NCBI GenBank assembly: GCA_937871785.1
Contig: CALMON010000130.1
Location: 1-57,489 of the forward strand
Source of the DNA: an uncultured Granulicella sp.
GTDB taxonomy: Bacteria; Acidobacteriota; Terriglobia; Terriglobales; Acidobacteriaceae
Length of the DNA stretch: 57,489 nt
Direction: 5' to 3'
Shown one piece after another: positions 660 to 17,652 of this stretch (the stretch's first letter is position 1; each line of letters begins with the position of its first letter). Below the pieces are notes generated by a model. It saw only the letters and a list, made by a program, of their open reading frames with translations. It had not been told where the DNA came from and ran no database searches. Both the position numbers and the translations under genes were made by a program.

Positions 660-3600
660 TTAGTAGTTCGCGCGTAGCGAGAACTGGAACGAACGGGGCA
701 GGTTGGCTTGCGAGGTGAAGACGCCGAACGAGGAGCTGTTGAACGTGAGCCCGGGATCGCCGAACTGCACGCGGTTGACGACGTTGAAGGCTTCGGCGCG
801 GAAGACGAGGTTTACGCCTTCGTGAATCGGCGTCGTCTTGCCAACGGAGAAATCCCAGTTGTCGACGCCCTGCGTGCGCAGCAGGCCGCTGGTGCGCGGC
901 TGGTTGCCTTCATACCCTGAAGCCAGGGTGGAACCGGCTGCGGGTACAGGAGCGGAAAAGCATGCCGAGTTGAAGATCGACGTGCCGGCCCGCGCCGCGG
1001 CCACGTAGCCGATCGGGTTGACCTGATTGCAGCCCGCGACGACGTTGGGACGCGGTGTGCCTCCGCCGTACGCTGCCGAAACAGGCGTAGGCGACGCCAC
1101 CAGAGCCAGCGGGAAGCCGCTCTGCAGGCTGTTGATGCCTGCCACGTTCCAACCGCCGACGACGGTGTTGACGAACGGGCTGGCATGGCTCAGGAAGCGC
1201 TTGCCCGTGCCTACCGGCAGATCGAGGATATAGCTGACGACGAGGCGGTGCGGCACATCGAAGCTGAGGTACGACTTTTCCGCGCGCAGGTTGTTGTAGT
1301 CCTGAATCGTTCCCTGCGTATGGCTTTCCACCTGCGGGTTGCTGGACTCCGAATCGCCGGTGAACTTCGACCAGCTATAGTTGCCGAGCAGCGTGCCTCC
1401 GCTCTTGAAGCGGCGGGTGACCGTCACCTGAGCCGAGTGGTAATACGAGTCGCCGATATACGGGGCTGTTGCGGTGACGTTCTGGAACAGCGGATACGGA
1501 CGCTGTGTCTGAGTCGTCGGGCCGATGGTTCCGGTGTCGGGTACCTGGTTGATGCCGAACGTGCCGGAGATTGGAAGATGATCGCCGCGAGCGCCCAGGT
1601 AGGCCAGTTGAAGAACTGTGCTGCTGCCGAACGCCTGCTGCACGTTGGCGTTCCATTGCTGCAAGTAGGGGAAGCTGCCGTTGGCGATACGCCCTTCGAT
1701 CGGCTGACCGTTGAAGATGTTCGGGTTGGCCGCATACTGGGCGCGGCTGACAGGTTGGATGATCGTCGACCGCGCCACGGAACCGGCGGCATTGCAGGGG
1801 CTGCCAGCGGTCGTGCCCGTGGTGATGAACCCTAACGGAGCGCACAGCAGGTAGCCTGGCGGAACGAACGTGGTTGGATCGTTGAGGGAAGAGTACACCG
1901 GGGACGCCGGAAAGGCGGTGTCCTGCGGAAGGAACGCCAGGCTGTAGCCCGCGCGGACAGTGGTGTTCGCGTAGGGGTTGAACGAAAAGCCGACGCGCGG
2001 GGAAAACAAGGTGTGATGCGCCTGCAGGTCGCCGCGGCCGGAGTAGCCGGACGAGTTGACCAGGACCAGAGGATTTGCCTGACCTTGAATCAGAACGGCA
2101 TTGTTGTCGTTTTTCACATAAAAGCTGCCCGGCAGCTCATAGCGAAGGCCCGCCGTGATGGTCAGTTTCGGAGAAACGACAAAGGTGTCATTGGCGAAAA
2201 CACCGGCGTAGTGTGTCAAGACGCTAGGGTGGGAGAGCGTCGTGAAGCCCGTGGGCGCGACCGCAAACTGGCCGGCCACAAAGTCCGCCACGGGTGTCGC
2301 TCCCGAAGCTGGAGCGACCACACCTGCCGTGCACACCTTGGCGGCAATGGGGTGGGCAGCGTCGTTGTATGTGGCCGAACCGCCACCGCTCGGGATGCAG
2401 GCCGTTTGGGTTCCCGCGAACACGTAAGCGCCAGCCGAGAACGGCTGATTGGAAAAGTACTCTTCACCCTGACGGAATTCGCCGCCGAAGCTAAGGGAGT
2501 GCTTGCCCAGCACCTTCGAGTACACGCCCGAGAAGGTAAACAGGTTCAGCGGTTGCTGACCGGTCTGGTCCAGTCCGTTGAGAGGATACGGTGCATTGTT
2601 GGTGATGTTGATGTCCGGAAAATAGCTGGGAAGCTGCGGAGCGATGCCTTTGTAGAAACCGGCGGTGTCGCCGTTGTCGAACGCCGCCTGGTTGACGTTG
2701 GTATTTGCCGGTTGCAGGTAGCTGAAAAAGCGCAGGTACGAAAGCCGGATGTCCAGAATCGACGTGGCGCTCAGGTTGGTCGTGTTGCCGAGAACGTATT
2801 GCGTGGTCGTTCCGCCGACACCGGTGAAGCCCTGCGGTCCCGCGGGGAAGTTCTGGTTGTAGAACTGTGTCGAGGGTTGGGTACGGTCGAACCGGGAAAC
2901 GCGGGCGAAGAACTGATTCTTCGCGTTGAGCGTGGCGTCGATACGCAATGTTCCCTGGTTGGTAAAGGCGAAAGCTTTCCCGTTGGCGATGTAATTGACG
3001 GCCGCGTTGCCGGTGCTGGCATTCGGTGTCGGGAAGTAGCGCAGGGTGTTGGCCAGGTACTGCGCGGTGGGGTCGGCCACGGCATCGCCCGGGTTCACGG
3101 GAGCTCCGATGCAGAACTTGTTAGCCACGCCACCGCAAGCTACCTGCCGGAAGTAGGCCGTGCCCGCGACAAAAGGGGTGTACGTTGTGGGGCTGCCGCT
3201 CGGTACCGGATTGATGATCTTGGCGTCCGCGGTAAAGTCGCCGGAAAGCTCCGCCGGTGTGGGCACGCGGCCCACGTTGACGACACCGTTGGCCAGACGA
3301 TAGCCCTCGTAGTCGGCGAAGAAGAAGATTTTGTCCTTCTTGATCGGTCCTCCCATCGTTGCGCCGAACTGGTTCTGATTGAACTTGGGCGTGGCGATGG
3401 GCGTGGCCAGATTTTTGTTGAAGAAATTGTTGGCGTTCAGGACCGTGTTGCGGAAGTACTCATACACCGTGCCGTGAATCTTGTTGCCGCCGGACTTGGT
3501 GCCGAACGAAACGACGCCGCCGCCGAAAGAACCGAACTTGGCGTTGACGACGCTGGATTCCACACGAAATTCCTGCACGGCATCCTGCGCGATGACGAAG

Positions 3601-4283
3601 GCGACGATGTTGCCTTCTTCCGCGTTGAAGGGCACGCCGTCGAGATACGTAGCTCCTTGCGCGGCGAGACCGCCGGCGATCGAGTAGTTGCCGAACGCGT
3701 TGGCATTGGTAAAGCCGCCACCCGCGGTGTTGTTGCTGGCACCGCCCTGGGTGCCGCCCTGCGCTACGACACCGGGGGTCAAAGCAATCAGGTTAAAGGT
3801 GTTCCGTCCGTTCAGCGGCGTGTCTTCTACCTGCCGGCCTTCGATCACCTGGCTCACCGTGGGAGACTGCGATTCCAGAACACTGGCGTCGGCGTTGACC
3901 GTGACGACTTCGCCTGTGTCGCCCACCTGGAGCGTGTAATCCAGCGCGACCTGGTCGTCCAAATGGAGGTCGATGCCCTGCTTCACCGTGCTCTTGAAGC
4001 CCGTCATCGTGACGCTCGCGTTGTAAATGCCGGGAAGCAGTTGGTTGAAGCGGTAAAGGCCCTCGGTGTTTGTGACGACCTTGGTAACCGCGCCGGTCGC
4101 CGTGTTGGTGAAGGTAACGGTGGCCGCGGGGATCTTCGCCCCCGTTGTGTCGGTAACCGTTCCCGTCACTGTGGCAGCGGTGCTTTGTGCCCGGAGAAGC
4201 GCGAAGGGAAGTGAAAGCAGCAGCAGCACGAACAGCATCCTGATCGGCAGACTGGTGGAAAAAAGGGGGGTGCGATTCGTCAT
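660..4283 (-). CDS. TonB-dependent receptor, Oar-like, with carboxypeptidase-regulatory N-terminal domain
   Basis: This 1207-residue protein has a Sec signal peptide ending near LLRAQS, then a carboxypeptidase-regulatory-like beta-sandwich (about residues 35-120; VTGTVTDTTGAKIP start), a plug domain (about 125-260, including P-L-N-G-R-N-T-F) and a long outer-membrane barrel ending in an aromatic residue (SLRANY). Such Oar/SusC-type receptors are greatly expanded in Acidobacteriota and import large or scarce nutrients with TonB energy. ATG codons lie at 4287-4289 and 4281-4283; the second is chosen because GGAG is 8 nt before it and only 2 nt before the first. It is transcribed divergently from the amidohydrolase at 4723, and a CTTGTCAAG palindrome lies 91 bp upstream. 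The context suggests that it is the uptake gate of the catabolic island. The ligand cannot be read from the sequence. Confidence 0.93.
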   Translation of the reverse strand: MTNRTPLFSTSLPIRMLFVLLLLSLPFALLRAQSTAATVTGTVTDTTGAKIPAATVTFTNTATGAVTKVVTNTEGLYRFNQLLPGIYNASVTMTGFKSTVKQGIDLHLDDQVALDYTLQVGDTGEVVTVNADASVLESQSPTVSQVIEGRQVEDTPLNGRNTFNLIALTPGVVAQGGTQGGASNNTAGGGFTNANAFGNYSIAGGLAAQGATYLDGVPFNAEEGNIVAFVIAQDAVQEFRVESSVVNAKFGSFGGGVVSFGTKSGGNKIHGTVYEYFRNTVLNANNFFNKNLATPIATPKFNQNQFGATMGGPIKKDKIFFFADYEGYRLANGVVNVGRVPTPAELSGDFTADAKIINPVPSGSPTTYTPFVAGTAYFRQVACGGVANKFCIGAPVNPGDAVADPTAQYLANTLRYFPTPNASTGNAAVNYIANGKAFAFTNQGTLRIDATLNAKNQFFARVSRFDRTQPSTQFYNQNFPAGPQGFTGVGGTTTQYVLGNTTNLSATSILDIRLSYLRFFSYLQPANTNVNQAAFDNGDTAGFYKGIAPQLPSYFPDINITNNAPYPLNGLDQTGQQPLNLFTFSGVYSKVLGKHSLSFGGEFRQGEEYFSNQPFSAGAYVFAGTQTACIPSGGGSATYNDAAHPIAAKVCTAGVVAPASGATPVADFVAGQFAVAPTGFTTLSHPSVLTHYAGVFANDTFVVSPKLTITAGLRYELPGSFYVKNDNNAVLIQGQANPLVLVNSSGYSGRGDLQAHHTLFSPRVGFSFNPYANTTVRAGYSLAFLPQDTAFPASPVYSSLNDPTTFVPPGYLLCAPLGFITTGTTAGSPCNAAGSVARSTIIQPVSRAQYAANPNIFNGQPIEGRIANGSFPYLQQWNANVQQAFGSSTVLQLAYLGARGDHLPISGTFGINQVPDTGTIGPTTQTQRPYPLFQNVTATAPYIGDSYYHSAQVTVTRRFKSGGTLLGNYSWSKFTGDSESSNPQVESHTQGTIQDYNNLRAEKSYLSFDVPHRLVVSYILDLPVGTGKRFLSHASPFVNTVVGGWNVAGINSLQSGFPLALVASPTPVSAAYGGGTPRPNVVAGCNQVNPIGYVAAARAGTSIFNSACFSAPVPAAGSTLASGYEGNQPRTSGLLRTQGVDNWDFSVGKTTPIHEGVNLVFRAEAFNVVNRVQFGDPGLTFNSSSFGVFTSQANLPRSFQFSLRANY

Positions 4284-4373
4284 TGGCATGGCTCCGGATT
4301 CTGAGCGACTCGTTCAGATGAAGAAACTGGGTGAACAGAGTAGCGGAACGAAGACTGCAATAGCAGACTAGGA

Positions 4374-4382
4374 CTTGTCAAG
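4374..4382. promoter_or_regulatory. Candidate TetR operator, copy 1 (CTTGTCAAG)
   Basis: A nine-base palindrome with a central A/T position, 91 bp upstream of the TonB receptor start. Identical copies lie at 4591, 8534 and 10434, all in control regions of the same island. Assignment to the TetR protein at 8787-9536 is inference. Confidence 0.5.
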
Positions 4383-4590
4383 AGGTTTCACGGCCGTGCC
4401 GCTTCGGAGAGAGAAAAGCCGGTCGTAGAGGCGATGTGATTTTCTATGCCGAACCCTCATGAAGAGCTTCAAGCTGCTTTTTTTCTCTGAATTCCGCAAA
4501 AACAGGAACGCGCAGTGGCAAACCACTCGCAGAAGGTGTTGCCCGGAGCACGGCAACGTCCCCCTCGAAAGACCGGCTCCGGACCGATTT

Positions 4591-4599
4591 CTTGACAAG
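4591..4599. promoter_or_regulatory. Candidate TetR operator, copy 2 (CTTGACAAG)
   Basis: Same palindrome in the other orientation, 123 bp before the amidohydrolase start at 4723. It contains TTGACA, but no -10 element is seen 16-18 bp downstream, which favours an operator over a -35 box. Confidence 0.5.
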
Positions 4600-4722
4600 T
4601 GCTTCGCCGAGAGCGCAAAGTGTTCTCGAAAAACATGTTCATTGTGACGGCGTTGTGAAAGCAAAGACACGACGCGCAAGAGCCATGTCGATCTCACTCG
4701 GAAGTGAGCCGGAAGAAAGCTT

Positions 4723-6336
4723 ATGGTGGCGAAACGAATGTTAGCAGGAAAACAAAGCGTTGAAGCGGCAGCGTGGAACGTAACGACTAGCCGGCGTTTG
4801 TTGGCGGGAGCCGCGATGTGCGTCGCCCTTGTAACGACTGCCTCCGCACAGCGCTCCACTGTTGAGAGCGGCACCGTGTTGAACGGCGTTTCCATTGTTG
4901 ACACACGCACCGGCAAGGTACAGCCGGGCATGAGCCTTGCCGTGGACGGCGGCAAGATCGTCAAGATCGGCAAAGCCGGCAGCCTCGTCGCTAAAGGCTC
5001 GGCCAAGGTCGTCGATGCGCGCGGCAAATTCGTGGTTCCGGGCTATTGGGAAATGCACGGCCATGCCATCGACAGCCCCGACCGCGTAGACAATCTGGCC
5101 CTGATGCTGGCCAGCGGCATCACCGGTTTGCGGCAGATGTCCGGTTCGGACGCCCTGCTTGCCGAGCGCAAGGCCGGCACGCTGATGCCGGCAAGCGACA
5201 CACCGGAGCTGCTGGCGATGCCCGGTTTGATTCTGCTGCGCAGCAACTCGGCCAACCCTCCCATGGGCATCGCCGAGGTCGACAAGCAGAAAACGGAAGG
5301 CGCGGACTTCATCAAGACCATCGACGTGAGCGTGCCGACGTTTTTCGCCGCGCAGGCCGAGGCCACCAAGGTCGGACTGCCGTATGACGGGCATCTATCG
5401 ACCGGTGTAGACGCGGCCAAGGCCTCCGAAGCGGGCATGCGCGGCATCGAGCATCTAGGCCCGCAAGAGACCATGCTGATCAGTTGCTCGACCGACGAGG
5501 CCGCGATGCGCGAGGCGATCGCGAAGCGGCTGGCGGCGATGGCCCCTGCGATTCCCCCGCCTGTGGGCGGCGTCTCGCTGTCGCTGTCGAAGGCGGCAAC
5601 GTCCAATCCGACGCTGAGCCGCGCGCTCGCCGACCCGACATCGTTTCCCAAGCTGCAGCACGTCATCGATACCTACAGCGAAGACAAGTGCCGTGCGTTG
5701 GCAAAGGTGTTTGTCGCGCACGGGACATGGCAGATTCCCACGCTGATCCGCATCCGCACCTCGCAGTTCGGCGATGATCCGGTGTACAGCGGCGATCCCA
5801 ACCTCCAGTACGTCGGGCAGGCAACGCGGCAGTTGTGGTCGGGCATAGCGGCGCAATTTACGGCAAAAATCACCCCTGAAAACAAGGCGACGCTGGCTCA
5901 GTTCTACGCGCTGCAGTTGAAGGTCGCGAAGCTGTTCGACGACTCCGGTGTCCGCATGCTGGCCGGTTCGGATTTCGGCGGCATGTGGCTGGTGGCGGGG
6001 TTCTCGCTGCACCAGGAGTTCGACCAGTTGGCGGCGGCCGGCTTCAAGCCTTTGCGCGTGTTGCAGATGACGACGCTCGATGCTGCCGACTTCCTCCATC
6101 GCACGCAAACCGACGGCACCGTGGAGATCGGCAAGAATGCGAACCTGGTCCTGCTCAGCGCTGACCCAACACAAAGCGTCGCGAATCTGCACACTGTTGT
6201 GGGCGTTATGCGCGGAGGGCAGTATTATTCCGCCGATCAACTGGCCGCGCTGAAGAAGCGTGTCGCCGATCACCTGAACACGGCGCAGGCGCGTGCATTG
6301 CCGGCGCAGACGGATGAGGATGACGGCGAGATGTAA
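4723..6336 (+). CDS. Exported metal-dependent amidohydrolase (imidazolonepropionase-like), paralogue 1
   Basis: The protein has 537 residues. A signal sequence follows an N-terminal extension (hydrophobic stretch about residues 27-42, cleavage near TTASAQ). Metal ligands of the amidohydrolase barrel are visible: H112-G-H114, K198 in FIKTID (the position of the carboxylated lysine in related prolidase/imidazolonepropionase-like enzymes), H224 in DGHLS, H244 in EHLG and D417 in AGSDFGG. A hydrolysed amide, ester or lactone substrate is expected; the family does not fix it. The start is supported by GGAAGA at 4711-4716. It is a close paralogue of the protein at 14131-15708; the shared segments differ mainly at scattered positions. 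A terminator follows at once, so this gene ends its own transcription unit. It probably works in the periplasm on material brought in by the divergent TonB receptor (inference). Confidence 0.9.
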   Translation: MVAKRMLAGKQSVEAAAWNVTTSRRLLAGAAMCVALVTTASAQRSTVESGTVLNGVSIVDTRTGKVQPGMSLAVDGGKIVKIGKAGSLVAKGSAKVVDARGKFVVPGYWEMHGHAIDSPDRVDNLALMLASGITGLRQMSGSDALLAERKAGTLMPASDTPELLAMPGLILLRSNSANPPMGIAEVDKQKTEGADFIKTIDVSVPTFFAAQAEATKVGLPYDGHLSTGVDAAKASEAGMRGIEHLGPQETMLISCSTDEAAMREAIAKRLAAMAPAIPPPVGGVSLSLSKAATSNPTLSRALADPTSFPKLQHVIDTYSEDKCRALAKVFVAHGTWQIPTLIRIRTSQFGDDPVYSGDPNLQYVGQATRQLWSGIAAQFTAKITPENKATLAQFYALQLKVAKLFDDSGVRMLAGSDFGGMWLVAGFSLHQEFDQLAAAGFKPLRVLQMTTLDAADFLHRTQTDGTVEIGKNANLVLLSADPTQSVANLHTVVGVMRGGQYYSADQLAALKKRVADHLNTAQARALPAQTDEDDGEM

Positions 6337-6354
6337 GGTTTCGATCCCATAGGA

Positions 6355-6388
6355 GGGTGCCTCTTCGCCGAGGCACCCTTTTCGTTGT
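6355..6388 (+). terminator. Rho-independent terminator after amidohydrolase
   Basis: A perfect 9-bp stem GGGTGCCTC / GAGGCACCC with a 6-nt loop (6364-6369) is followed by TTTTCGTTGT. It lies 18 bp after the stop codon at 6336 and separates this gene from the SnoaL-like gene. Confidence 0.9.
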
Positions 6389-6420
6389 CACTGCTGTACT
6401 CAAAGTAAAGGACACAAACG

Positions 6421-7020
6421 ATGACCATGATGGATGACGAGTTCGCGATTCGCAAGCTAATCGAAAGCTGGGTCCTGTTTCGCGATGCGGGCTTCTGGGA
6501 TCGCTTCCGAACGGTATGGCACCCCGACGGCGTCATGGTGGCGACGTGGTTTGAAGGCCCCGCGGAAGGTTTCATTCAGGCTAGCGAAGCGGGCTTCAAC
6601 AAGGGCGTGAACGTGCTCCACACCCTGGGCGGCAGCATTGTGGACGTTCGTGGTAACCGCGCCATAGCGCAGACGAAAATGGCGATCTCGCAACGCGCGC
6701 CGCTGAACGGTGTTCTTTGCGACTGTGTCTGCCAGGGCCGCTTCTACGACATGTATGAGAAGCGTGAAGGCCGGTGGGGTCTCGTCAAGCGGCAGCCCAT
6801 TTATGAGAAAGACCGCCTGGACCCGGTCGACCTTTCGCAAACCGTGGAGCTGGACCGCGAAAAACTCGCGGCGATGCCGGAAGGCTATCGGCATCTCGCG
6901 TATTTGCAACTGGCCGTCGGCATGAACGTCAACCTGCAACTGCCCGGACTTCGCGGAGCGGCGGTGACGGCGCTGTATGCGCAGGGCGACGCCTGGTTAG
7001 CAGGCGCGCAGACCGCATAG
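6421..7020 (+). CDS. SnoaL-like / NTF2-fold protein
   Basis: A 199-residue soluble protein. The N-terminal part (A-I-R-K-L-I-E-S-W, then a W-H-P-D-G-V segment around residues 38-43) is typical of SnoaL-like, NTF2-fold proteins, a family that includes scytalone dehydratase, steroid isomerase and aromatic-ring hydroxylase small subunits. A cone-shaped pocket for a hydrophobic, often aromatic or polyketide, ligand is known for the fold; the reaction here cannot be deduced. AAAGGA about 9 nt before the ATG supports the start. It converges with the MFS gene (12-bp gap). Its position within the catabolic island suggests a dehydration, isomerisation or hydration step, which is inference. Confidence 0.85.
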   Translation: MTMMDDEFAIRKLIESWVLFRDAGFWDRFRTVWHPDGVMVATWFEGPAEGFIQASEAGFNKGVNVLHTLGGSIVDVRGNRAIAQTKMAISQRAPLNGVLCDCVCQGRFYDMYEKREGRWGLVKRQPIYEKDRLDPVDLSQTVELDREKLAAMPEGYRHLAYLQLAVGMNVNLQLPGLRGAAVTALYAQGDAWLAGAQTA

Positions 7021-7032
7021 GCCTGCAGTGAT

Positions 7033-8274
7033 CTAAGCCGTTATCGGCGCCTCGATCGGTGCGTCGTACCCGGGCAGGGCGAAGGTCGCCAGCGCAGCCA
7101 GCGCGCTGAGCCCGACGAAGAGCAGCAAGCCGGGACGATAGCTGCCCAGGCGGTCGAAGCTCATGCCCATCAGCAGCGGACCGACGCCGACACCTAGCGA
7201 AAACGCTCCGAACGCAATGCCGTACAGCCGGCCGAAGGCGGCATTGCCGAAGTAGCGGCGCACCATGAAAGCAGTGAAGTCGACCTCCGCGCCCAGCACG
7301 GAGCCGACCAGCAGCGACGCCACGTACCCCGAAGCCTTGGAATGCGACGCGAGCAACACCACCAGCGCCGTCAGGATGATGCCGGCGACCCCGGCCAGCA
7401 GTCGCGCCGTATTGAAGCGGTCAAGTAGCCAGCCGATGCCGGCGCGCCCCAGAATGACCATGATGCCGGCCAGGCTGACGACATTGGCGGCCTGTGCCGG
7501 CGACATGCCGCGGTCGCCCATCAAGGGAACGAAGTGGGCCAGGGTGCCTCCGCTGGCCGCGCCAAGCAGGATAAAGATGGAGCACATCAGCAGAAACGCG
7601 CGCGTGGTTATAAGCGGTAGAACGGCGACTTTTACATGCGTCAGCGCCGCGGCAGGCAGCTTGGCATGGCGGGTCGCGAACAGGGCTGCCGGTATGGTCA
7701 GGATCAGCGTGGCCAACGCGATGGTGGCGTAGGCCAAACGCCAGCCATGCGTCAGCGTCAACCAGGTGGCAGCTTTGGGCAGCAGGGAAGCGCCCAGGCC
7801 GATGCCCATCAGCGCGAAGCCGAGCGCAAGGCCGAGATGGCGCTCGAAGCTGCGCACCAGAACGGCCGCGTACCCCACCGGAGCGGCCGCGCCGCCAAGG
7901 ATCGTGAACAGCGCAAACGTCAGGTACAGATGGCCGATGTGCGGCGTCAGGAACGCCAGCGACCCGTAGGCCACCGACATGCCGATGATCGAAGGCAGAA
8001 TGACTCGGCGCGGACCGAAGCGGTCGACCAGCGCACCCCAGAACGGGCAGGTGAGCGCGACCGCAAACTGCCCGATGGTGAGCGCGCCGGAAATTTGCGT
8101 GCGCGTCCAGTGAAACTGCGCGGCAAGCGGGCGAATGAAGACGCTGAAGGAGTACAGCAGCAGGGTTCCGACCGACAGCATCAGGCACAGGGCACAGGCA
8201 GCTACAGTCGACCAGTCGCGGTCAAGCACACGGGGATCTTCGATCTGGTTCGGCAGCGTTTGGATATTCGGCAT
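7033..8274 (-). CDS. Major facilitator superfamily transporter
   Basis: The 413-residue protein has about twelve hydrophobic segments and the MFS loop motif between helices 2 and 3 (G-A-L-V-D-R-F-G-P-R-R, about residues 78-88), repeated in weaker form in the second half (G-W-L-L-D-R-F, about 280). The gene layout resembles oxalate/formate-type or monocarboxylate MFS carriers. The ATG at 8272-8274 is preceded by AAGGAG (8279-8284) on the minus strand. In-frame sequence upstream of it lacks membrane character and is not used. It is divergent from the TetR gene, with a CTTGTCAAG palindrome between them; this arrangement is common for a regulator and the transporter it controls. It likely moves the island's substrate or a product across the inner membrane. 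Confidence 0.92.
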   Translation of the reverse strand: MPNIQTLPNQIEDPRVLDRDWSTVAACALCLMLSVGTLLLYSFSVFIRPLAAQFHWTRTQISGALTIGQFAVALTCPFWGALVDRFGPRRVILPSIIGMSVAYGSLAFLTPHIGHLYLTFALFTILGGAAAPVGYAAVLVRSFERHLGLALGFALMGIGLGASLLPKAATWLTLTHGWRLAYATIALATLILTIPAALFATRHAKLPAAALTHVKVAVLPLITTRAFLLMCSIFILLGAASGGTLAHFVPLMGDRGMSPAQAANVVSLAGIMVILGRAGIGWLLDRFNTARLLAGVAGIILTALVVLLASHSKASGYVASLLVGSVLGAEVDFTAFMVRRYFGNAAFGRLYGIAFGAFSLGVGVGPLLMGMSFDRLGSYRPGLLLFVGLSALAALATFALPGYDAPIEAPITA

Positions 8275-8786
8275 GGGTCTCCTTGCCCTGGCCAGGCGCC
8301 GTGTTCGGTTCCGGCGACTCGCGATTCTACGGCTCTTCGTGCAGCGTTTCGTTCGGAGTCCATGTTGCTTTGAACCACACAGGCAGGGTGCATGGCTTGC
8401 CGGCAGAAACTCTGCGTCTCTTACTGTATAACCGGACGATGCGGAAGCGGCATCCCCGCCTGCGGTATCGATCCCGATCGGGCAATTCGGATGAACTTGT
8501 TTACACATGAGAGACTGCCCGTCAAGCGTTTCGCTTGTCAAGCGGGGCCTGAGCTCTGCAGGAAGCTCAGCGTGTTTTGCGGTTGACCCCACAGGGATGG
8601 GGGCTCGGCGTCGATCGCGAAGGCAAATGCGAGCGACGCGTTTGGGCGAACAGATGTGCTGAACAGACGGGGTCGAAGACAGTACACTTGTCGATAACGA
8701 AACAGGGGACGGCAACGGACAGGAGACGGTGGCCCACGCTCCCCGCGAACTACCCACGATCAAGATCCGGGAGGAAGACGGAACCT
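8275..8786. promoter_or_regulatory. Divergent control region between MFS and TetR genes
   Basis: A 512-bp stretch with no gene I can support. Frames that run through it into the two genes have no family signature and start far from any good ribosome-binding site. It holds palindrome copy 3 (8533-8543) and an extra half-site GTCAAGCG at 8521-8528. A partial match ACTTGTC is at 8686-8692. Confidence 0.55.
8533..8543. promoter_or_regulatory. Candidate TetR operator, copy 3 (GCTTGTCAAGC)
   Basis: An 11-bp perfect palindrome around the shared core, located between the divergent MFS and TetR genes. It is placed where an autoregulatory operator would be expected. A direct half-site copy 17 bp to the left could extend the site. 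Confidence 0.55.
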
Positions 8787-9536
8787 ATGCCCATGGCGAT
8801 GCCCAGTGCGGCGAATGCAGAGCTCGAAGCGGAAGCAAAGGCCCCCGTGCGTGCCAAGCCGCTGGGCGTGCGTGAGCTTTCCAAGCAGGAAAGCCAGCAC
8901 AGAATCATGGTCGCGGCGCGAACCCTGTTTGCGGAGCACGGCTACGATCGCGCTACGCTGCGTGAGATCGCGGCCCGGGCCGGGCTGACGGTCGGTGCCC
9001 TCTTCAATCACGTTACGGACAAGCGCGACCTGATCTACCTGATCTTCAACGAAGAGGTGGACACGATCGCCGAAGTGGCTCTCGCGTCGCCGAGGTCCTA
9101 CCAGTCTTTGAGCGCGAAAATTCTTACTATGCTGGAACACTACTTCCGCATGTTTAGCGGGGAGCCGGTGCTTTCGCGCATTTTGCTGACAGAAATCGTG
9201 GTGTTGTCTCCGGGCATCCACCTGGCGCGGTACCTGACGACGCGGGCGCGGCTGGTGGATACGATCGAAGCGATGGTGGCGCGGGCGCAGGAGAGCGGCG
9301 AAATCGAGTCGACCGAATCCGCCGAACTGATTGCGCGCAACATCTTCTACATCTACAGCGCGTCGCTGCGATCGTGGCTTGCGGCCTGCGACCGGCCGGA
9401 CTGGCGAGACGGTCATCGTGAGTTCGAGCGGATGTTGAACCTGCTGGTAAACGGCTTGCGCCCCGCGCCAAGGAGCGCTGAAAAGCTGCTGAAGGTGAAG
9501 ATGGCGCACGCGGCGAAGCCGTCGCTAAGGAAGTAA
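8787..9536 (+). CDS. TetR/AcrR-family transcriptional regulator
   Basis: The 249-residue protein has a typical TetR N-terminal DNA-binding domain at about residues 35-85: R-I-M-V-A-A-R-T-L-F-A-E-H-G-Y, then the helix-turn-helix T-L-R-E-I-A-A-R-A-G-L-T-V-G-A-L-F-N-H and the K-R-D-L linker. The C-terminal helical ligand domain is divergent, as usual. The ATG at 8787 follows GGGAGG (8769-8774); a second ATG two codons on is also possible. Divergent transcription from the MFS gene and four copies of a shared palindrome near the island's transcription units make it the likely local repressor, released by a pathway compound. That assignment is inference. Confidence 0.92.
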   Translation: MPMAMPSAANAELEAEAKAPVRAKPLGVRELSKQESQHRIMVAARTLFAEHGYDRATLREIAARAGLTVGALFNHVTDKRDLIYLIFNEEVDTIAEVALASPRSYQSLSAKILTMLEHYFRMFSGEPVLSRILLTEIVVLSPGIHLARYLTTRARLVDTIEAMVARAQESGEIESTESAELIARNIFYIYSASLRSWLAACDRPDWRDGHREFERMLNLLVNGLRPAPRSAEKLLKVKMAHAAKPSLRK

Positions 9537-9635
9537 GCCGGGCCGCGCCGGCGTACCGGAAACCGCGCGTTGAGGTAAACACGTTCAGGGAGTTTGCGGT
9601 AGCATGGGGTCGCAGCATTGGGAGGAGTACCCCGC

Positions 9636-10406
9636 ATGACCTTATCCCGCAGCAACCCGACTCGCCCAGCGACTCGCCGCAAGTGGCCCTTCGGCCTCGC
9701 CGCGGCTGGTGTCGCCGTGGTCGCGGCGGCAGTTTGGGTGAAGCTGGATTACGAGGCATGGACACGCCTGGGGGCCGGGGGTATTCAAGGGAGCTTTAAG
9801 GGCTGGCTGCGCACCACCCGCCTGCGCCTGCAGATGAAGCACTCTTTGGACCTGACGGGGCTTCTGGCCATGCAGGGCAGCGCGGGGGACGCGGTTCATC
9901 TGCCGCCGCTGCCACGCCGCAGCACAGTGCGGCCGCGGGTGGGGGCGCATCCGATCCCGCATCGGCAGATCGATCAACGGGCGCATCCGGAGCTTGCCGC
10001 CGCGCTGAAAACTGCGTTCGACTCGGCCGTTGCGGACAACGCCGACCACGTCCGATATGCGCTCAGCTTTTTTGAACGGCACACGCGCGCGGTCACCTGC
10101 CTCGAAGGCGCGAGCGACCCTCTCGGCGGCGCGTCTCGCGGTGAAATCGGCCATATCCATGATCTGGACGGGTCCATGCACATGATCCTGAGCCCGACTG
10201 ACACAATTGCGGCCATCGAAGGCGGCTGGGGTGAGCTGCACGGGCTTGCCGGGCGCGCCGCGAACCTGCCGCCAAACTACCTGATGGTCTACGCTCCGCA
10301 GCGCGTGGAAGACGTCGCGGTCGCGGCACAGTTGCTTCGTGCGGCCATCGCGTACATGACCGGTGCCGGCGGCTCCATCCCCGCGCAAACGCTGGAGCCT
10401 GCATGA
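9636..10406 (+). CDS. Membrane-anchored luciferase-domain protein (DUF5519-like)
   Basis: The 256-residue protein has basic residues and then one hydrophobic segment (about residues 19-36), so it is membrane-anchored or exported. The C-terminal half carries a pattern I recognise from the luciferase-domain family related to fungal luciferases: HPIPHRQ near residue 104, G-H-I-H-D-L-D-G-S-M-H, then G-W-G-E-L-H-G-L-A-G and Y-L-M-V-Y-A-P. The bacterial members have no known reaction. Fungal members oxidise a hydroxylated styrylpyrone, so a role on a pyrone or phenolic compound in this island is tempting but unproven. The ATG at 9636 follows GGGAGGAG (9620-9626). It lies between the TetR gene and the decarboxylase gene, all on the plus strand. 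Confidence 0.75.
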   Translation: MTLSRSNPTRPATRRKWPFGLAAAGVAVVAAAVWVKLDYEAWTRLGAGGIQGSFKGWLRTTRLRLQMKHSLDLTGLLAMQGSAGDAVHLPPLPRRSTVRPRVGAHPIPHRQIDQRAHPELAAALKTAFDSAVADNADHVRYALSFFERHTRAVTCLEGASDPLGGASRGEIGHIHDLDGSMHMILSPTDTIAAIEGGWGELHGLAGRAANLPPNYLMVYAPQRVEDVAVAAQLLRAAIAYMTGAGGSIPAQTLEPA

Positions 10407-10432
10407 GATGGCTCGCAAACGCGCCACGTTTT

Positions 10433-10443
10433 ACTTGACAAGT
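10433..10443. promoter_or_regulatory. Candidate TetR operator, copy 4 (ACTTGACAAGT)
   Basis: An 11-bp perfect palindrome, 81 bp before the decarboxylase start codon at 10525. It would control the decarboxylase/CoA-transferase/thiolase operon. The TTGACA within it has no matching -10 at 17 bp (CGAAAC is found there). Confidence 0.55.
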
Positions 10444-10524
10444 CTGAAGGGCGTCCGCGAAACTCCGGGGGCGTGAACGTGTTTTCCCAATCCAACAAAG
10501 CAACAATGCAACAAGGAGTTGAGT

Positions 10525-11493
10525 ATGGCTGGTAAGACCGTGAAAAAGATCGTTCTGGAAGAGCATTTTTCCACGCCTGAGATGTCGAAATACGCGACCG
10601 ACGTCGTCAAGACGATTGACGACAAGTTTCTCGACTACGTCAAGCCGCGCCTGATGGACATGAACGGCGTGCGGCTCGAAGAGATGGACAAGTACGGCAT
10701 CGATATGGCCGTGCTCTCGGTGACCTCTCCCGGCGTGCAGCTGGAGCCCGACGCGGCGGCTGCGGTGAAGAGCGCGAAGCACATCAACGACTATCTGGCG
10801 GAGGAAATCGCCAAGCACCCGACGCGGTTTGCCGGGTTCGCGCATCTGGCCCTGCAGGACGGCAAAGCCGCGGCCGACGAGCTCGAGCGCTGCGTCAAGC
10901 AGCTCGGCATGAAGGGCGCGCTCATCAACGGGCACACGAACGGCGAGTATCTCGACGACCAGAAGTTCTGGCCGATGTGGGAGCGCGCGGAAGAACTTGG
11001 TGTGCCGGTCTACCTGCATCCGGCGGACTCGCCCACGATGCCGAGCAACGAGGCCGGCTACCCGGAAATGGCCGGCCCGGGCTGGCAGTGGGGTTCTGAA
11101 ACCGCGGGCCACGTGCTGCGCATGATCTACGGCGGCGTGTTCGACCGCTTTCCGAAAACAACGGTCGTGCTGGGCCACATGGGCGAAACATTACCGTTTA
11201 TTCTTTGGCGTTTAGACAGCCGCTACGCCATGTTGAAGCACACCAACCCGCTGAAGCTGAAGCCGTCCGAGTACATCAAGCGCAACATCATGGTCACGAC
11301 CGCCGGTTCGTTTTCGGACGCCCCCCTGATGTGCACCATGCTCGCGCTCGGCGCCGATCGCATCATGTTCTCGATCGACTACCCGTACGAGGAAACGTCG
11401 CAGGCTGTGGAGTTCATCGACAACGCGCCGTTGAGCGACGAAGACCGCGAAAAGATCTGCTACGGAAACGTCACGCGCCTGCTGAAGCTCTAA
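10525..11493 (+). CDS. Gamma-resorcylate decarboxylase-like amidohydrolase
   Basis: The 322-residue protein resembles 2,6-dihydroxybenzoate (gamma-resorcylate) decarboxylases along its length. The metal ligands of that family are in place: E12 and H14 in LEEHF, H165 in YLHP and D285 in FSIDYPYE; H218 in LGHMGE matches the conserved active-site histidine. Family members remove CO2 from hydroxybenzoates with a Mn or Zn ion and can run in reverse; some relatives hydrolyse or decarboxylate non-aromatic compounds. ATG 10525 is chosen over a TTG at 10519 because AAGGAG (10513-10518) is 6 nt upstream. It is the first gene of a run with CoA-transferase and thiolase genes, so its product may feed CoA activation. 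It lacks a signal peptide and should be cytoplasmic. Confidence 0.88.
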   Translation: MAGKTVKKIVLEEHFSTPEMSKYATDVVKTIDDKFLDYVKPRLMDMNGVRLEEMDKYGIDMAVLSVTSPGVQLEPDAAAAVKSAKHINDYLAEEIAKHPTRFAGFAHLALQDGKAAADELERCVKQLGMKGALINGHTNGEYLDDQKFWPMWERAEELGVPVYLHPADSPTMPSNEAGYPEMAGPGWQWGSETAGHVLRMIYGGVFDRFPKTTVVLGHMGETLPFILWRLDSRYAMLKHTNPLKLKPSEYIKRNIMVTTAGSFSDAPLMCTMLALGADRIMFSIDYPYEETSQAVEFIDNAPLSDEDREKICYGNVTRLLKL

Positions 11494-11531: not shown

Positions 11532-12230
11532 TTGAACAAATTACGGCCGAGCGCGGCGGACGCGCTCACCGACATCGTCAAGGACGGGATGCTGCTGGCC
11601 ATCGGTGGCTTCGGTCTATGCGGCATTCCTGAAGAGTTGATCGACGGCCTGCGCGCGACGGGCGTGCGCGACCTCACGGTAGCCAGCAACAATGCCGGCG
11701 TCGACGGCATCGGTCTGGGCACGCTGCTGGAGTCGCGGCAGATTCGCAAGATGATTTCGAGCTATGTCGGCGAAAACGCCGAATTTGAGCGGCAATACCT
11801 TGCCGGCGAGCTCGACGTTGAGTTCTGCCCGCAAGGCACGCTGGCCGAGCGCATGCGCGCGGGCGGCGCCGGCATCCCCGGCTTTTACACGCGCACCGGC
11901 GTGGGCACGGCTGTCGCTGAAGGCAAGGAGCACAAGGACTTCGACGGCCATACCTACATTCTGGAGCGCGGCATCCGCGCCGATGTGTCGCTGGTGAAGG
12001 CGTGGAAAGCGGACACGCACGGCAACCTGATCTACCGGCTGGCGGCGCAGAATTTCAATCCTGGCGCGGCCATGTGCGGCAAGATTACGGTCGCCGAAGC
12101 GGAAATTATCGTCGAAGCCGGTGAGCTGGACCCTTCGCAGATCCACACACCCGGCATCTACGTGCAGCGGCTGGTGCATGTGCCGAACCCGGCCAAGCAC
12201 ATTGAAAAAGTCACCACGAGGGAGGCCTAG
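11532..12230 (+). CDS. 3-oxoacid CoA-transferase, subunit A
   Basis: The 232-residue protein is a class I CoA-transferase alpha subunit: an N-terminal glycine-rich segment (G-G-F-G-L-C-G-I-P-E-E-L-I, about residues 23-35), the S-N-N-A-G region and C-terminal I-H-T-P-G-I-Y-V-Q-R. It pairs with subunit B, which begins at the next base. Together they move CoA from a donor such as succinyl-CoA to a 3-oxo acid (acetoacetate or 3-oxoadipate type; the two cannot be separated by eye). The start is the TTG at 11532: AAAGGA and AAGGA elements lie just before it, the protein begins where the family does, and longer in-frame sequence overlaps the decarboxylase gene. Cytoplasmic. Confidence 0.9.
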   Translation: MNKLRPSAADALTDIVKDGMLLAIGGFGLCGIPEELIDGLRATGVRDLTVASNNAGVDGIGLGTLLESRQIRKMISSYVGENAEFERQYLAGELDVEFCPQGTLAERMRAGGAGIPGFYTRTGVGTAVAEGKEHKDFDGHTYILERGIRADVSLVKAWKADTHGNLIYRLAAQNFNPGAAMCGKITVAEAEIIVEAGELDPSQIHTPGIYVQRLVHVPNPAKHIEKVTTREA

Positions 12231-12881
12231 ATGTCCTGGACGCGAAAAGAAATGGCCAAGCGCGCCGCGCAGGAACTCCGCGATGGCTTCTACGTAAACC
12301 TCGGCATCGGCATGCCGACCTACGTGTCGAACTACATCCCCGAAGGCATGACGGTCACGCTGCAGTCGGAAAACGGCATCCTCGGCCTCGGGCCTTTCCC
12401 TACCAAAGATGAAGTCGATGCCGATCTCATCAATGCCGGCAAAGAAACGGTAACTCTCACTCCCGGCGCGTCGCTGTTTTCAAGCTCCGACTCGTTTGCC
12501 ATGATCCGCGGCGGCCATGTGGACCTCGCGATCCTGGGCGCGATGCAAGTGTCCGAACAGGGTGACCTGGCCAACTGGATGATTCCCGGCAAGCGCGTCA
12601 AGGGCATGGGCGGCGCGATGGACCTGGTTGCCGGCGTGCGCCGCGTGATCGTGCTCATGGAGCACTCGGCTCCGGGCGGCGCGGCCAAGCTGCTGCGCTC
12701 GTGCACCTTGCCGCTCACGGGGCAGGGCGTTGTCAATCGCATTATTACGGATCTGTGCGTGCTGGATGTAACGACCGAAGGCTTCAAGCTGGTGGAACTC
12801 GCGCCGGATGTAACCTTCGAGCAGGTGCAGAAAGCGACCGACGCCAGCATACGGCCAGCAAGAACGGAGAATGCGCTGTGA
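12231..12881 (+). CDS. 3-oxoacid CoA-transferase, subunit B
   Basis: The 216-residue beta subunit carries the catalytic glutamate (E47 in the S-E-N-G-I-L-G motif) that forms the glutamyl-CoA intermediate, and the usual N-L-G-I-G-M-P-T segment near residue 22. The ATG follows the TAG of subunit A with no spacer, and GGGAGG lies about 8 nt before it, so the two subunits are translated as a pair. Its stop overlaps the thiolase start by four bases (GTGA). The product 3-oxoacyl-CoA is the substrate expected by the next enzyme. Confidence 0.92.
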
Positions 12882-14059
12882 AGATTGTGATCGTAGCCGC
12901 CCGCCGAACGGCGATGGGCTCTTTTTTGGGCGGATTCAAGGATGTTCCGGCCGTCACGTTGGCCTCCACCGTGGCCAAAGAGGTTTTGCAGGGAATCGCG
13001 GGAGACGATGTGGCCGACGTCCTCCTCGGCAACGTGCTGCAGGCGGGTCAGGGTATGAATCCGGCGCGCCAGGTCGCGCTTACCAGCGGGCTGCCCATCG
13101 CGGTTCCGGGCCAGACGGTGAATCGCGTGTGCGGCAGCGGTATGCAGGCAATCGTGAGCGCGGTGCAGGCGCTTAAAGCCGGCGACGGCGAACTGTATCT
13201 CGCGGGCGGCGCGGAGAATATGTCGCGTGCGCCGTTCCTGCTGGAAGGCATCCGCGCCGGCCATAAGTTCGGCAACACCAACCTTGTCGACAGCATGTTG
13301 AATGACGGCCTTACCGACCCGACTTACAAGTACCACATGGGCATCACGGCTGAAAACGTCGCTGAAAAATACGGCATCACCCGCGAAGAGCAGGATGCCT
13401 TCGCGCTCGACACGCATCGCCGCGCTGCCGCCGCGCAGACCAGCGGCTACTTTGCCGACGAGATCGTTCCTGTCTCCGTTCCCGGCCGCAAAGGCCCGAC
13501 CGTCGTCGACAAGGACGAGAGTGTGCGTCCAGACTCCACACTCGAAGCCCTGGCGCGCCTGAAGCCGGCGTTCAAACCCGAGGGCGGTACCGTTACCGCC
13601 GGGAACGCCAGCGGCCTGAACGACGGCGCCGCCATGGTGCTGCTGTGCACCGACACCTACGCTGAAGCGCACGGCCTGAAGCCGCTGGCAGAGATCGTCA
13701 GCTACGCGGCAGTCGGCGTCGACCCGGCGCTGATGGGCCTCGGACCGGCGTCCGCCGTTCCCCTTGCGCTCAAAAAGGCTGGCATGAGTGTCGACCAGAT
13801 CGATCTGTTCGAGCTGAACGAGGCTTTTGCGTCGCAGTCGATCGCCGTCATTCGCGACCTGAAGCTGCCGCTGGAAAAGGTCAACATTTCAGGAGGAGCC
13901 ATTGCCCTGGGTCACCCCATCGGAGCGTCCGGGGCGCGCGTCGTCGTGACCCTGATCCATGCATTGCGGACTCGGCAGAAGCCGTATGGCGTCGCCAGCC
14001 TGTGCATCGGCGGGGGTATGGGCATCGCCATGGTCCTGCGTGCGCTGCCGAAGGAATAA
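12878..14059 (+). CDS. Thiolase (acetyl-CoA acetyltransferase family)
   Basis: The 393-residue protein has all thiolase signatures: the acyl-accepting cysteine C85 in VCGSGMQA, the N-E-A-F motif, [11 protein letters not shown] with its catalytic histidine, and a C-terminal C-I-G-G-G-M-G cysteine. It cleaves a 3-oxoacyl-CoA with free CoA, giving acetyl-CoA and a shortened acyl-CoA. The GTG start at 12878 overlaps the stop of the CoA-transferase subunit B as GTGA, and GGAG lies at 12865-12868; the protein then begins exactly where thiolases do ([10 protein letters not shown]). Whether the substrate is acetoacetyl-CoA or 3-oxoadipyl-CoA is open. No other beta-ketoadipate gene is in the window. 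Confidence 0.93.
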
Positions 14060-14130
14060 GCCCTGGCCACGCGGCTGATTCACATCCATTGTTTCTGCCG
14101 ACCATTTCCGTAGCGCGAAAGAGACCCTTT

Positions 14131-15708
14131 ATGTTCACAGACCGACGCCCATCCGCTTTCGCCGCACTGGTCACAACCGGCCTTGCTGCCCTGGCTTGCG
14201 TCACAGCCGGCGCGCAGAGCAAGACCACGAGCATCGGCCTGGTGCTCACGGGTGTCACGGTCATCGACACGCACACGGGCAAGGCGTCGCCGGACATGAA
14301 CGTTGCGATCGCGGACGGCAAGATCGTCAAGATCGGTCGTGCGGGAACGTTCAAACCTCAGCGCGAAGCGCAGATCGTCGACGCGCGCGGCAAGTTTCTT
14401 ATCCCTGGCTTTTGGGACATGCATGCCCATCCGCTTGATGGCGACCGCGCTCAGAACCTAGCCATCATGCTGGCCTACGGCATCACAGGGGTGCGGCAGA
14501 TGTCCGGGTCGGACGCCACGCTGGCCCAGCGCAAGGCGGGTACGCTGTACCCATCGATCGATTCGCCGGAAATCGTAGCGATGCCGGGGACGCTGCTGAC
14601 CCGTGCCGCCGCTGCGACGCCCGAAGCAGCCACGGCGCTGGTGCAGCATGACAAGGCGCTCGGCGCGGACTTCTTCAAGACGGTCGACGCGACGCCCCCG
14701 GTCTTTTTCGCCGCGCTCGCGGAGGCGGACAAGGAAAGCTTCCCGTTTGCCGGCCACCTGTCCCCGGGCGTCGACCCGGCCAAGGCGTCCGAGCAGGGAA
14801 TGCGTGCGATCGAGCACCTCGGCCCCGGCGAAACGATCCTGAATCCCTGCTCGACGGACGCGGCAGGGTTGGAGGCAGCCGCGCTGGCACATCCTCCGGC
14901 TACTCCGCAGAACCTGCCGCCGCAAGCTCTGCAGCAGATGGCGAAGCTGGCCACGGCTTCGCCGATGCTGGCGCGTATGCTGGCCAATCCCGGCTATTTC
15001 GATCGGCTGCAGCACACGCTCGATACCCAGGCCGACCCGCCCTGCCTCGCGCTCGCGAAAATTTTCATCGCGCACGGGACCTGGCAAGCTCCCACCCTGA
15101 TCCGTCTGCGCACCATGCAGATGAGCGATGACCCACAGTACACGGCCGATCCGAACCTCAAGTACGTTTCGCCCGCTACGTTAAAGGACTGGAACGCCGC
15201 GGCGCGGATGTACACCTCAAAAGCGACGGCGGCAAACAAGCAAACGATCGAGCAGTTGAACGCCGCTCAGTTGCACATGACGAAGCTGTTCGACACAGCA
15301 GGCGTGCGAATGCTGGCGGGGTCGGACTTTGGCGGCATCTGGGTCATCCCCGGCGTGTCGCTGCACCAGGAATTCGATCTGCTCGGGCAGGCGGGTTTGT
15401 CGCCGCTGCGCGTGTTGCAGATGACGACGCTGTATGGCGCGGAGTTCTTCCATCGCACGGCGATCGACGGCACGGTGGCGGAAGGCGAGAACGCGAATCT
15501 TGTACTGCTCGACGGCAACCCGGTTGAGAGCGTCGCAAACCTGCACAAAGTAGCCGGTGTTCTGCGCGATGGGCGCTACTACGACAAGGCGGCTCTGGAA
15601 GCGCTGAAGACGAAGGCAGCGGCGGAGTTGGCGCGGCCCCCGGCCTCCGGCGCGGACCCGAAAGCGACGGCTCAGGTGCGTGAGCCGTTCGTAGACGACG
15701 GCGACTAG
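14131..15708 (+). CDS. Exported metal-dependent amidohydrolase (imidazolonepropionase-like), paralogue 2
   Basis: The 525-residue protein begins with a clear Sec signal peptide (cleavage after V-T-A-G-A-Q, about residue 29). It is a paralogue of the protein at 4723-6336 with the same order of metal ligands: H-A-H in DMHAHPLD, the lysine in FFKTVD, the histidines in AGHLS and EHLG, and the aspartate in AGSDFGG. The pair brackets the catabolic island. The start ATG at 14131 has only a weak AGAGA upstream but gives a complete signal peptide; an upstream extension would run into the thiolase gene. It follows the thiolase by 71 nt and may be cotranscribed with it. The substrate is unknown; divergence between the two copies suggests related but different substrates. 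Confidence 0.9.
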   Translation: MFTDRRPSAFAALVTTGLAALACVTAGAQSKTTSIGLVLTGVTVIDTHTGKASPDMNVAIADGKIVKIGRAGTFKPQREAQIVDARGKFLIPGFWDMHAHPLDGDRAQNLAIMLAYGITGVRQMSGSDATLAQRKAGTLYPSIDSPEIVAMPGTLLTRAAAATPEAATALVQHDKALGADFFKTVDATPPVFFAALAEADKESFPFAGHLSPGVDPAKASEQGMRAIEHLGPGETILNPCSTDAAGLEAAALAHPPATPQNLPPQALQQMAKLATASPMLARMLANPGYFDRLQHTLDTQADPPCLALAKIFIAHGTWQAPTLIRLRTMQMSDDPQYTADPNLKYVSPATLKDWNAAARMYTSKATAANKQTIEQLNAAQLHMTKLFDTAGVRMLAGSDFGGIWVIPGVSLHQEFDLLGQAGLSPLRVLQMTTLYGAEFFHRTAIDGTVAEGENANLVLLDGNPVESVANLHKVAGVLRDGRYYDKAALEALKTKAAAELARPPASGADPKATAQVREPFVDDGD

Positions 15709-17393: not shown

Positions 17394-17652
17394 CGTGTGC
17401 ATTTCCTTTGGGGTAACCTCGCGAGCGGGCGCAGCTTCGCGCGGAGTGCTTTCGCGCGTGGCTCGCAAGAGTGAAAGATGCCGTAGACCGCTGTCAAGGC
17501 GCGGCTCGAAGAGGAGGCCGCCGTACGACCGCCTTGCACCTCGTCCGTTTCGGACGGCTGCCGCTTGTGAGAGGTAGTGCCGGGTCTGTACTGTCTTGCC
17601 TGTGATGGTAGGCCCGTTCGCCCGGCCTTAACTCCCCTGAGGTGATTTCCCC

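Follow-up and report, generated by a model that had tools for sequence, protein, structure and literature searches.

The 57,489-base stretch of DNA from an uncultured Granulicella sp. analysed here (the window) carries a catabolic island with a TetR-family regulator gene and four exact copies of the 9-mer CTTGWCAAG (W, A or T). An earlier note on this DNA proposed the 9-mer as the operator of a candidate local TetR regulon. Our analysis favors a different assignment, to which we give a probability of about 0.8: CTTGWCAAG would be the -35 box of four similar promoters, and the TetR protein would most likely read a separate palindrome located downstream of the box. The local regulon over the island is supported and plausible, and the identification of the 9-mer as its operator is probably wrong, the motif having apparently been misassigned. 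The boxes, their orientation, their fixed spacing, the downstream palindrome and its change between TetR paralogues are directly visible in the DNA.

Clustering and placement of the CTTGWCAAG sites

An exact search recovered the four palindromes that had been reported at 4374, 4591, 8534 and 10434, and no fifth copy was present in the window, as the earlier note had found by eye. In 100 dinucleotide-preserving shuffles of the window, the mean was 0.33 and the largest count was 2, with none reaching 4. The reported extension of two sites to 11-bp palindromes was reproduced, with GCTTGTCAAGC at 8534 and ACTTGACAAGT at 10434. The whole assembly (3.95 Mb in 269 contigs, 82.9% complete) contains 21 sites, compared with 26 for the reversed control, which throughout is the same pattern reversed and counted over the same DNA. 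The motif is not frequent in the genome, whereas frequent occurrence in unrelated places was what the earlier note had named as telling against its proposal. The word is not enriched genome-wide, and only its clustering in the window is unusual. Given the 17 sites elsewhere in the genome, the Poisson probability of at least four in a window-sized stretch is about 1.3e-4; a calculation restricted to the 6-kb span would have been post hoc.

All four sites lie upstream of island genes, and the family domains of these genes start past the sites, in agreement with the proposed location in control regions. Mechanically called open reading frames of 219 to 576 codons also span the four sites, and these frames are antisense to recognized genes or form upstream extensions of them. 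The statement that nearly every transcription unit is covered is a fair one: the TonB-receptor gene, the amidohydrolase A gene, the MFS gene and the decarboxylase-like operon have one site each, and no promoter was found for the TetR gene itself. Seven of the 17 sites outside the window lie inside open frames of at least 360 codons. The remainder include sites in a second TonB/TetR cluster, at two TonB-receptor promoters and at an FAA-hydrolase/glyoxalase-type operon.

Proposed directional promoter elements at a fixed spacing

At each of the four window sites, the TTGACA within CTTGACAAG faces the nearest downstream island gene. A hexamer with A in the second and T in the sixth position (xAxxxT) follows in all four at a spacer of exactly 18 bp, which lies within the 16–18 bp that separate sigma-70 -35 and -10 boxes; none of the four has T at -12. 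Among the 21 genome sites, taken without selection, xAxxxT occurs at spacer 18 in 8, and at the 17 other spacers (10 to 27) in 0–3. On the opposite strand, one of the same 21 sites has it at spacer 18, and no other spacer gives more than 3. Since the signal is directional and the final AG is mostly not kept beside TetR homologues, as described below, the CTTGWCAAG sites look like -35 boxes. The sites on C136 and C181 are followed by TAGGAT and TAGGCT at spacers 16 and 17.

The composite pattern CTTGACA-N17-SSANNNT (S, G or C) has 16 matches in the assembly and 4 in the reversed control, and four of the 16 are those of the window. CTTGAC is a usual -35 box in rhizobia. With the sigma-70-type promoter that has this box, the window promoters share TTGACA and an xAxxxT hexamer, here at spacer 18; the own-genome set differs from it in lacking T at -12 and in having a spacer of 18 rather than 17. 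Eleven own-genome promoters were picked by eye, the 21-site spacer count being the unselected version. Not among these eleven are C260:2420 (CTTGACCAG, which lacks xAxxxT at spacer 18), C260:4347, although it fits, matches inside genes, and the sites on C136 and C181. A similar promoter occurs outside the island at 17490–17498 on the reverse strand, where the non-palindromic box CTTGACAGC is followed by CACTCT at spacer 18, about 90 bases before the ATG of a TPR-domain gene (15819–17468).

A candidate operator downstream of the box

The island regulator belongs to the TetR family, scoring 50 bits for TetR_N (PF00440) against a cut-off of 24. It falls far below the cut-offs of the curated KstR model (35.9 bits, cut-off 280) and of the curated FadR model of the Bacillus type (46.3 bits, cut-off 200). 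In a profile comparison with solved structures, 3whb, named fatty acid metabolism regulator protein, was among the best matches (E 1.4e-15), and 4uds (MbdR) matched at E 1e-13. At E 1e-20 or better, a match to the protein was found in 3 of 150 genomes of the taxonomic family, its own included (2 of the 149 others), and the same two other genomes have a match among 397 genomes of the order at 1e-25. Scanning of genome contigs with an eight-protein alignment yielded 33 homologue loci, assigned by their record titles to Betaproteobacteria (22), Acidobacteria (5) and others (6). The operator, matrix and box counts for other genomes use these loci (L052–L084) only; L040 is the L069 contig, and L041 is the L061 contig. 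On the L052 contig, labelled Formivibrio, the TetR protein is 54% and the amidohydrolase 53% identical to those of the window, with a TonB-like gene adjoining; the contig could be acidobacterial and misassigned.

With at most one mismatch, TGAACATGTTCA occurs at 35 sites in 20 of the 33 loci, the sites coming partly from closely similar loci, and the reversed word is absent from the same 364 kb. This palindrome is thus kept beside orthologous regulator genes, as a TetR operator would be. In 16 cases, spread over 12 loci, a box with at most one mismatch from CTTGACA precedes TGAACATGTTCA by 29 or 30 bp; the background rate is 0.0009 per position and strand. Only the first seven bases of these boxes were selected, and the two unselected bases that follow are AG in just 5 of the 16, so that the right half of the supposed 9-mer palindrome is mostly absent. 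The homologue boxes are followed by xAxxxT at spacer 17 in 15 of 16 cases and at spacer 23, inside the operator, in 12 of 16; this hexamer is only partly independent evidence, as its last T is often the first base of the operator. At two Acidobacteria loci, the palindrome lies 14 bp after the box, between both promoter elements, so that the palindrome moves while the box stays recognizable.

A matrix built from the other genomes only placed 4628 and 8490 at the top of all window positions, in this order, each 38 bp after a box (sites 2 and 3), and simulated windows gave means of 0.05 and 0.17 hits at the respective scores. At three of the four window sites, a variant of TGAACATGTTCA follows 38–39 bp downstream. 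The word AAACANGTTCA, picked after inspection of the four candidate operators in the window, is common to them all; it has 14 copies in the genome (reversed control, 0) and five in the window, the fifth inside the TonB gene. Most of the nine copies outside the window overlap long open frames, and the C214 copy alone looked promoter-like. There (L045, 426–439), GTAAACATGTTCAC precedes an acyl-CoA-dehydrogenase-like gene and CTTGCCAAA stands 26 bp ahead of its AAACATGTTCA core; the site is a possible further target outside the island. The word RTGAACATGTTCAY with up to two mismatches was found at 54 places in the assembly (reversed control, 20) and was set aside as too loose for a regulon list.

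Box and palindrome at the paralogue loci

The genome encodes five paralogues of the window TetR, with identities of 72, 54, 49, 47 and 43%. At three of the five paralogue loci (C54, C174 and C192), the same kind of promoter is followed by a different palindrome. The C54 cluster, which repeats the set of TonB, decarboxylase-like, MFS and TetR genes, has three matches to the composite pattern; two of them carry GACCACGGTCAT, present nowhere else in the assembly, and the third carries the related GTGACCGTAGTCGC. Both matches on C174 are followed about 46–49 bp after the box by GAACACGTTCGT, which is likewise confined to this place. The C192 box, flanked by the TetR paralogue and a decarboxylase-like gene, precedes the perfect palindrome GAGAACTAGTTCTC. 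The presumed recognition helices of these paralogues, at positions that we take from the general TetR fold, differ as well. A palindrome that varies between paralogues behind a constant box would be expected if TetR reads the palindrome.

Similar boxes on C260 and C42 have GATAACNNGTTACC at +38 and nowhere else (reversed control, 0). The pair carries less weight, since C42 yielded no TetR paralogue and a T takes the place of the pattern's G or C in the C260 box. The other composite matches belong to TonB-receptor genes (two on C12, one on C42 and one on C175) and to the C94 operon, with one more on C260. On C12 (L036), two exact copies of TGATCGCAATCA, at 9381 and 9428, flank the CTTGACAAG promoter of a TonB-receptor gene and would represent a different regulator and operator acting on the same kind of box. 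On C94 (L037), a perfect GTGAACATGTTCAC at 2754–2767 lies 35 bp after CTTGACAAG and before FAA-hydrolase/glyoxalase-type genes; no TetR gene of the window's TetR family was found on this contig.

Counter-evidence and alternative readings

Several observations weigh against a -35 box combined with a downstream TetR operator. In 27 relatives of the genus, the composite promoter pattern is not enriched (76 matches; reversed control, 81), and the idea of a general promoter type of the genus was accordingly dropped as unsupported. All 11 promoters chosen by eye lack T at -12, which is unusual for a sigma-70 promoter. On the operator side, 13 of the 33 homologue loci have no operator at the cut-off used, and site 1 carries only half an operator. 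The highest score among 100 simulated windows, 18.99, exceeded that of the real window (17.85), and the weaker window sites at 9574 and 10472 ranked 7th and 24th. For GACCACGGTCAT and GAACACGTTCGT, two copies each, the reversed controls are not lower (2 and 1, respectively), and their place rather than their count is the evidence. Within the 17.5 kb read around the closest paralogue (C142), no exact CTTGACA promoter of the composite type was found. Finally, AG after CTTGACA is over-represented: it follows in 8 of 16 own-genome composite promoters compared with 6 of 76 in the genus (Fisher p = 2.4e-4), in 4 of 12 without the window's four (p = 0.03), and in 5 of 16 boxes beside homologues (p = 0.02). 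This excess may stem from common descent, from a preference for an extended -35 element or from another protein that binds the DNA, and the 9-mer may have a second role.

The AG excess bears on the possibility that CTTGWCAAG itself is an operator that overlaps the -35 region and serves the window TetR or a second regulator. A -35 hexamer needs no AG, and the symmetry of the 9-mer and its four copies within 6.1 kb point the same way. We nevertheless consider this improbable and set it aside as the main reading, because the xAxxxT signal is confined to one strand and the final AG is missing in 11 of 16 homologue boxes and in 8 of 16 own-genome composite promoters. Moreover, the same 9-mer precedes the C12 TonB genes, where there is no TetR paralogue and one gene has the two TGATCGCAATCA copies instead, and the box is constant while the paralogous TetR proteins and the palindromes differ. 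The lack of enrichment in relatives and the absent T at -12, together with a spacer of exactly 18, are what would be expected if a dedicated sigma factor or activator, and not the housekeeping sigma, read CTTGACAAG-N15-(GC/CG)AnnnT, with TetR acting on top. All 16 composite matches lie in the window, before TonB-receptor genes, on TetR-paralogue contigs or at the FAA-hydrolase/glyoxalase-type operon, and TTGACA with TAnnnT at spacers 16–18 forms a separate own-genome set (22 matches; reversed control, 11). Against this stand a -35 element that is the plain sigma-70 hexamer, homologue promoters that mostly have spacer 17 and often TAAACT or TAAAGT as the -10 box, and the similar promoter before the TPR-domain gene outside the island; we consider such a dedicated factor improbable. 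In its extended form, which we rate as no less doubtful, several related catabolic clusters and TonB-receptor genes would share this promoter signature through a dedicated sigma factor or activator that relatives lack or use otherwise, and each TetR paralogue would have a private downstream palindrome. In that case, a shared on-switch would operate together with separate off-switches that have coevolved.

Genes of the island

The coordinates of the promoter elements, candidate operators and genes are collected in Table 1. Amidohydrolases A and B (the latter at 14122–15708) are 55% identical and apparently represent a local duplication. From the gene families, an aromatic acid may be guessed as the substrate of the island. 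The luciferase-domain gene has a candidate operator directly upstream.

Table 1. Positions of promoter elements, candidate operators and genes in the window
Feature	Positions	Strand	Sequence or basis
Site 1, toward TonB-type receptor gene	4374–4382	-	CTTGACAAG; proposed -35 TTGACA 4376–4381
Site 1, proposed -10	4352–4357	-	CAGTCT, spacer 18
Site 2, before amidohydrolase gene	4591–4599	+	CTTGACAAG; proposed -35 TTGACA 4592–4597
Site 2, proposed -10	4616–4621	+	CAAAGT, spacer 18
Site 3, toward MFS gene	8534–8542	-	CTTGACAAG; proposed -35 TTGACA 8536–8541
Site 3, proposed -10	8512–8517	-	CAGTCT, spacer 18
Site 4, before decarboxylase-like operon	10434–10442	+	CTTGACAAG; proposed -35 TTGACA 10435–10440
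Site 4, proposed -10	10459–10464	+	GAAACT, spacer 18
Site 1 operator register (14 bases), weak or absent operator	4331–4344	-	right half (TGTTCAC) alone matches
Candidate TetR operator, 38 bp after site 2	4629–4642	.	AAAAACATGTTCAT; matrix rank 1
Candidate TetR operator, 38 bp after site 3, between MFS and TetR genes	8491–8504	.	ATGAACTTGTTTAC; matrix rank 2
Candidate operator between TetR and luciferase-domain genes, no -35 box identified	9575–9588	.	GTAAACACGTTCAG; matrix rank 7; AAACANGTTCA match
Weaker candidate operator, 39 bp after site 4	10473–10486	.	GTGAACGTGTTTTC; matrix rank 24; AAACANGTTCA match
TonB-receptor-like outer-membrane protein	660–4289	-	OMP_b-brl_4 with CarboxypepD_reg; Pfam/NCBIfam
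Amidohydrolase A	4723–6336	+	Amidohydro_1/3; Pfam/NCBIfam
SnoaL-like gene	6421–7020	+	SnoaL_4; Pfam/NCBIfam
MFS transporter	7033–8373	-	coding part scanned; true start not settled
TetR-family regulator	8787–9536	+	Pfam/NCBIfam, structure-profile matches
Luciferase-domain gene, between TetR gene and decarboxylase-like operon	9618–10406	+	PF17648; domain match
Amidohydro_2 gene (decarboxylase-like), first in operon	10519–11493	+	Pfam/NCBIfam
Operon remainder: CoA-transferase A and B, acetyl-CoA-acyltransferase-type thiolase, amidohydrolase B	11550–15708	+	Pfam/NCBIfam

Proposed mechanism and relation to known regulators

With the 9-mer taken as a -35 box, the island promoters would be of a type consisting of CTTGACAAG, 15 bases, GC or CG, A, three bases and T. 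We infer that RNA polymerase binds the two promoter boxes, a step well supported by the sequence, and that a TetR dimer binds a 14-bp palindrome of the type NTGAACATGTTCAN (island form AAACANGTTCA) 38–39 bp downstream. This palindrome would cover the expected transcription start, where bound TetR would block RNA polymerase and repress transcription. An intermediate of the pathway, perhaps an aryl- or acyl-CoA, would act as the inducer and release TetR.

The nearest described cases that we found for this mode are KstR and MbdR. According to the published account, KstR is a TetR repressor of mycobacterial lipid and cholesterol genes whose 14-bp operator, TAGAAC(N2)GTTCTA with the core TnnAACnnGTTnnA, overlaps the promoter (PMC1995591). 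The AAC-N2-GTT core is common to this operator and the candidate operators of the island, whereas the outer bases (TG/CA in the island) and the pathway genes differ, and the candidates do not show the full TAGAAC(N2)GTTCTA. MbdR is described as a TetR repressor of anaerobic 3-methylbenzoate degradation, with operators of the type ATACN10GTAT that overlap the -10 box, the -35 box or the start and with a CoA ester as inducer (PMC4424350). It represses several promoters of one aromatic-catabolic cluster (PMC4424350), like the proposed island regulon. By profile it is among the closer solved structures, and its operator type differs from the island candidate. The Bacillus FadR-type TetR is among the best structure-profile matches (3whb) and appears in the NCBIfam list, although the window TetR lies far below the cut-off. 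FadP and LiuQ are described as TetR regulators that, among those studied, occur in Betaproteobacteria only (PMC5343134), and the TetR homologues described here may be identical with FadP or LiuQ. In the open-licence literature searched, none of the 4 papers containing TGAACATGTTCA had a title on a bacterial regulator, none of the 18 with GAACATGTTC and "tetr" had a title on a TetR operator of such a kind, and no description of this TetR subfamily of Acidobacteria and Betaproteobacteria was found.

The proposed assignment corrects an easy misreading, in which a near-symmetric -35 box is taken for an operator, and provides a testable candidate operator for this TetR subfamily. With five paralogues in one genome, at least three of which have different palindromes behind similar promoters, the system would be a natural experiment on TetR DNA specificity after duplication.

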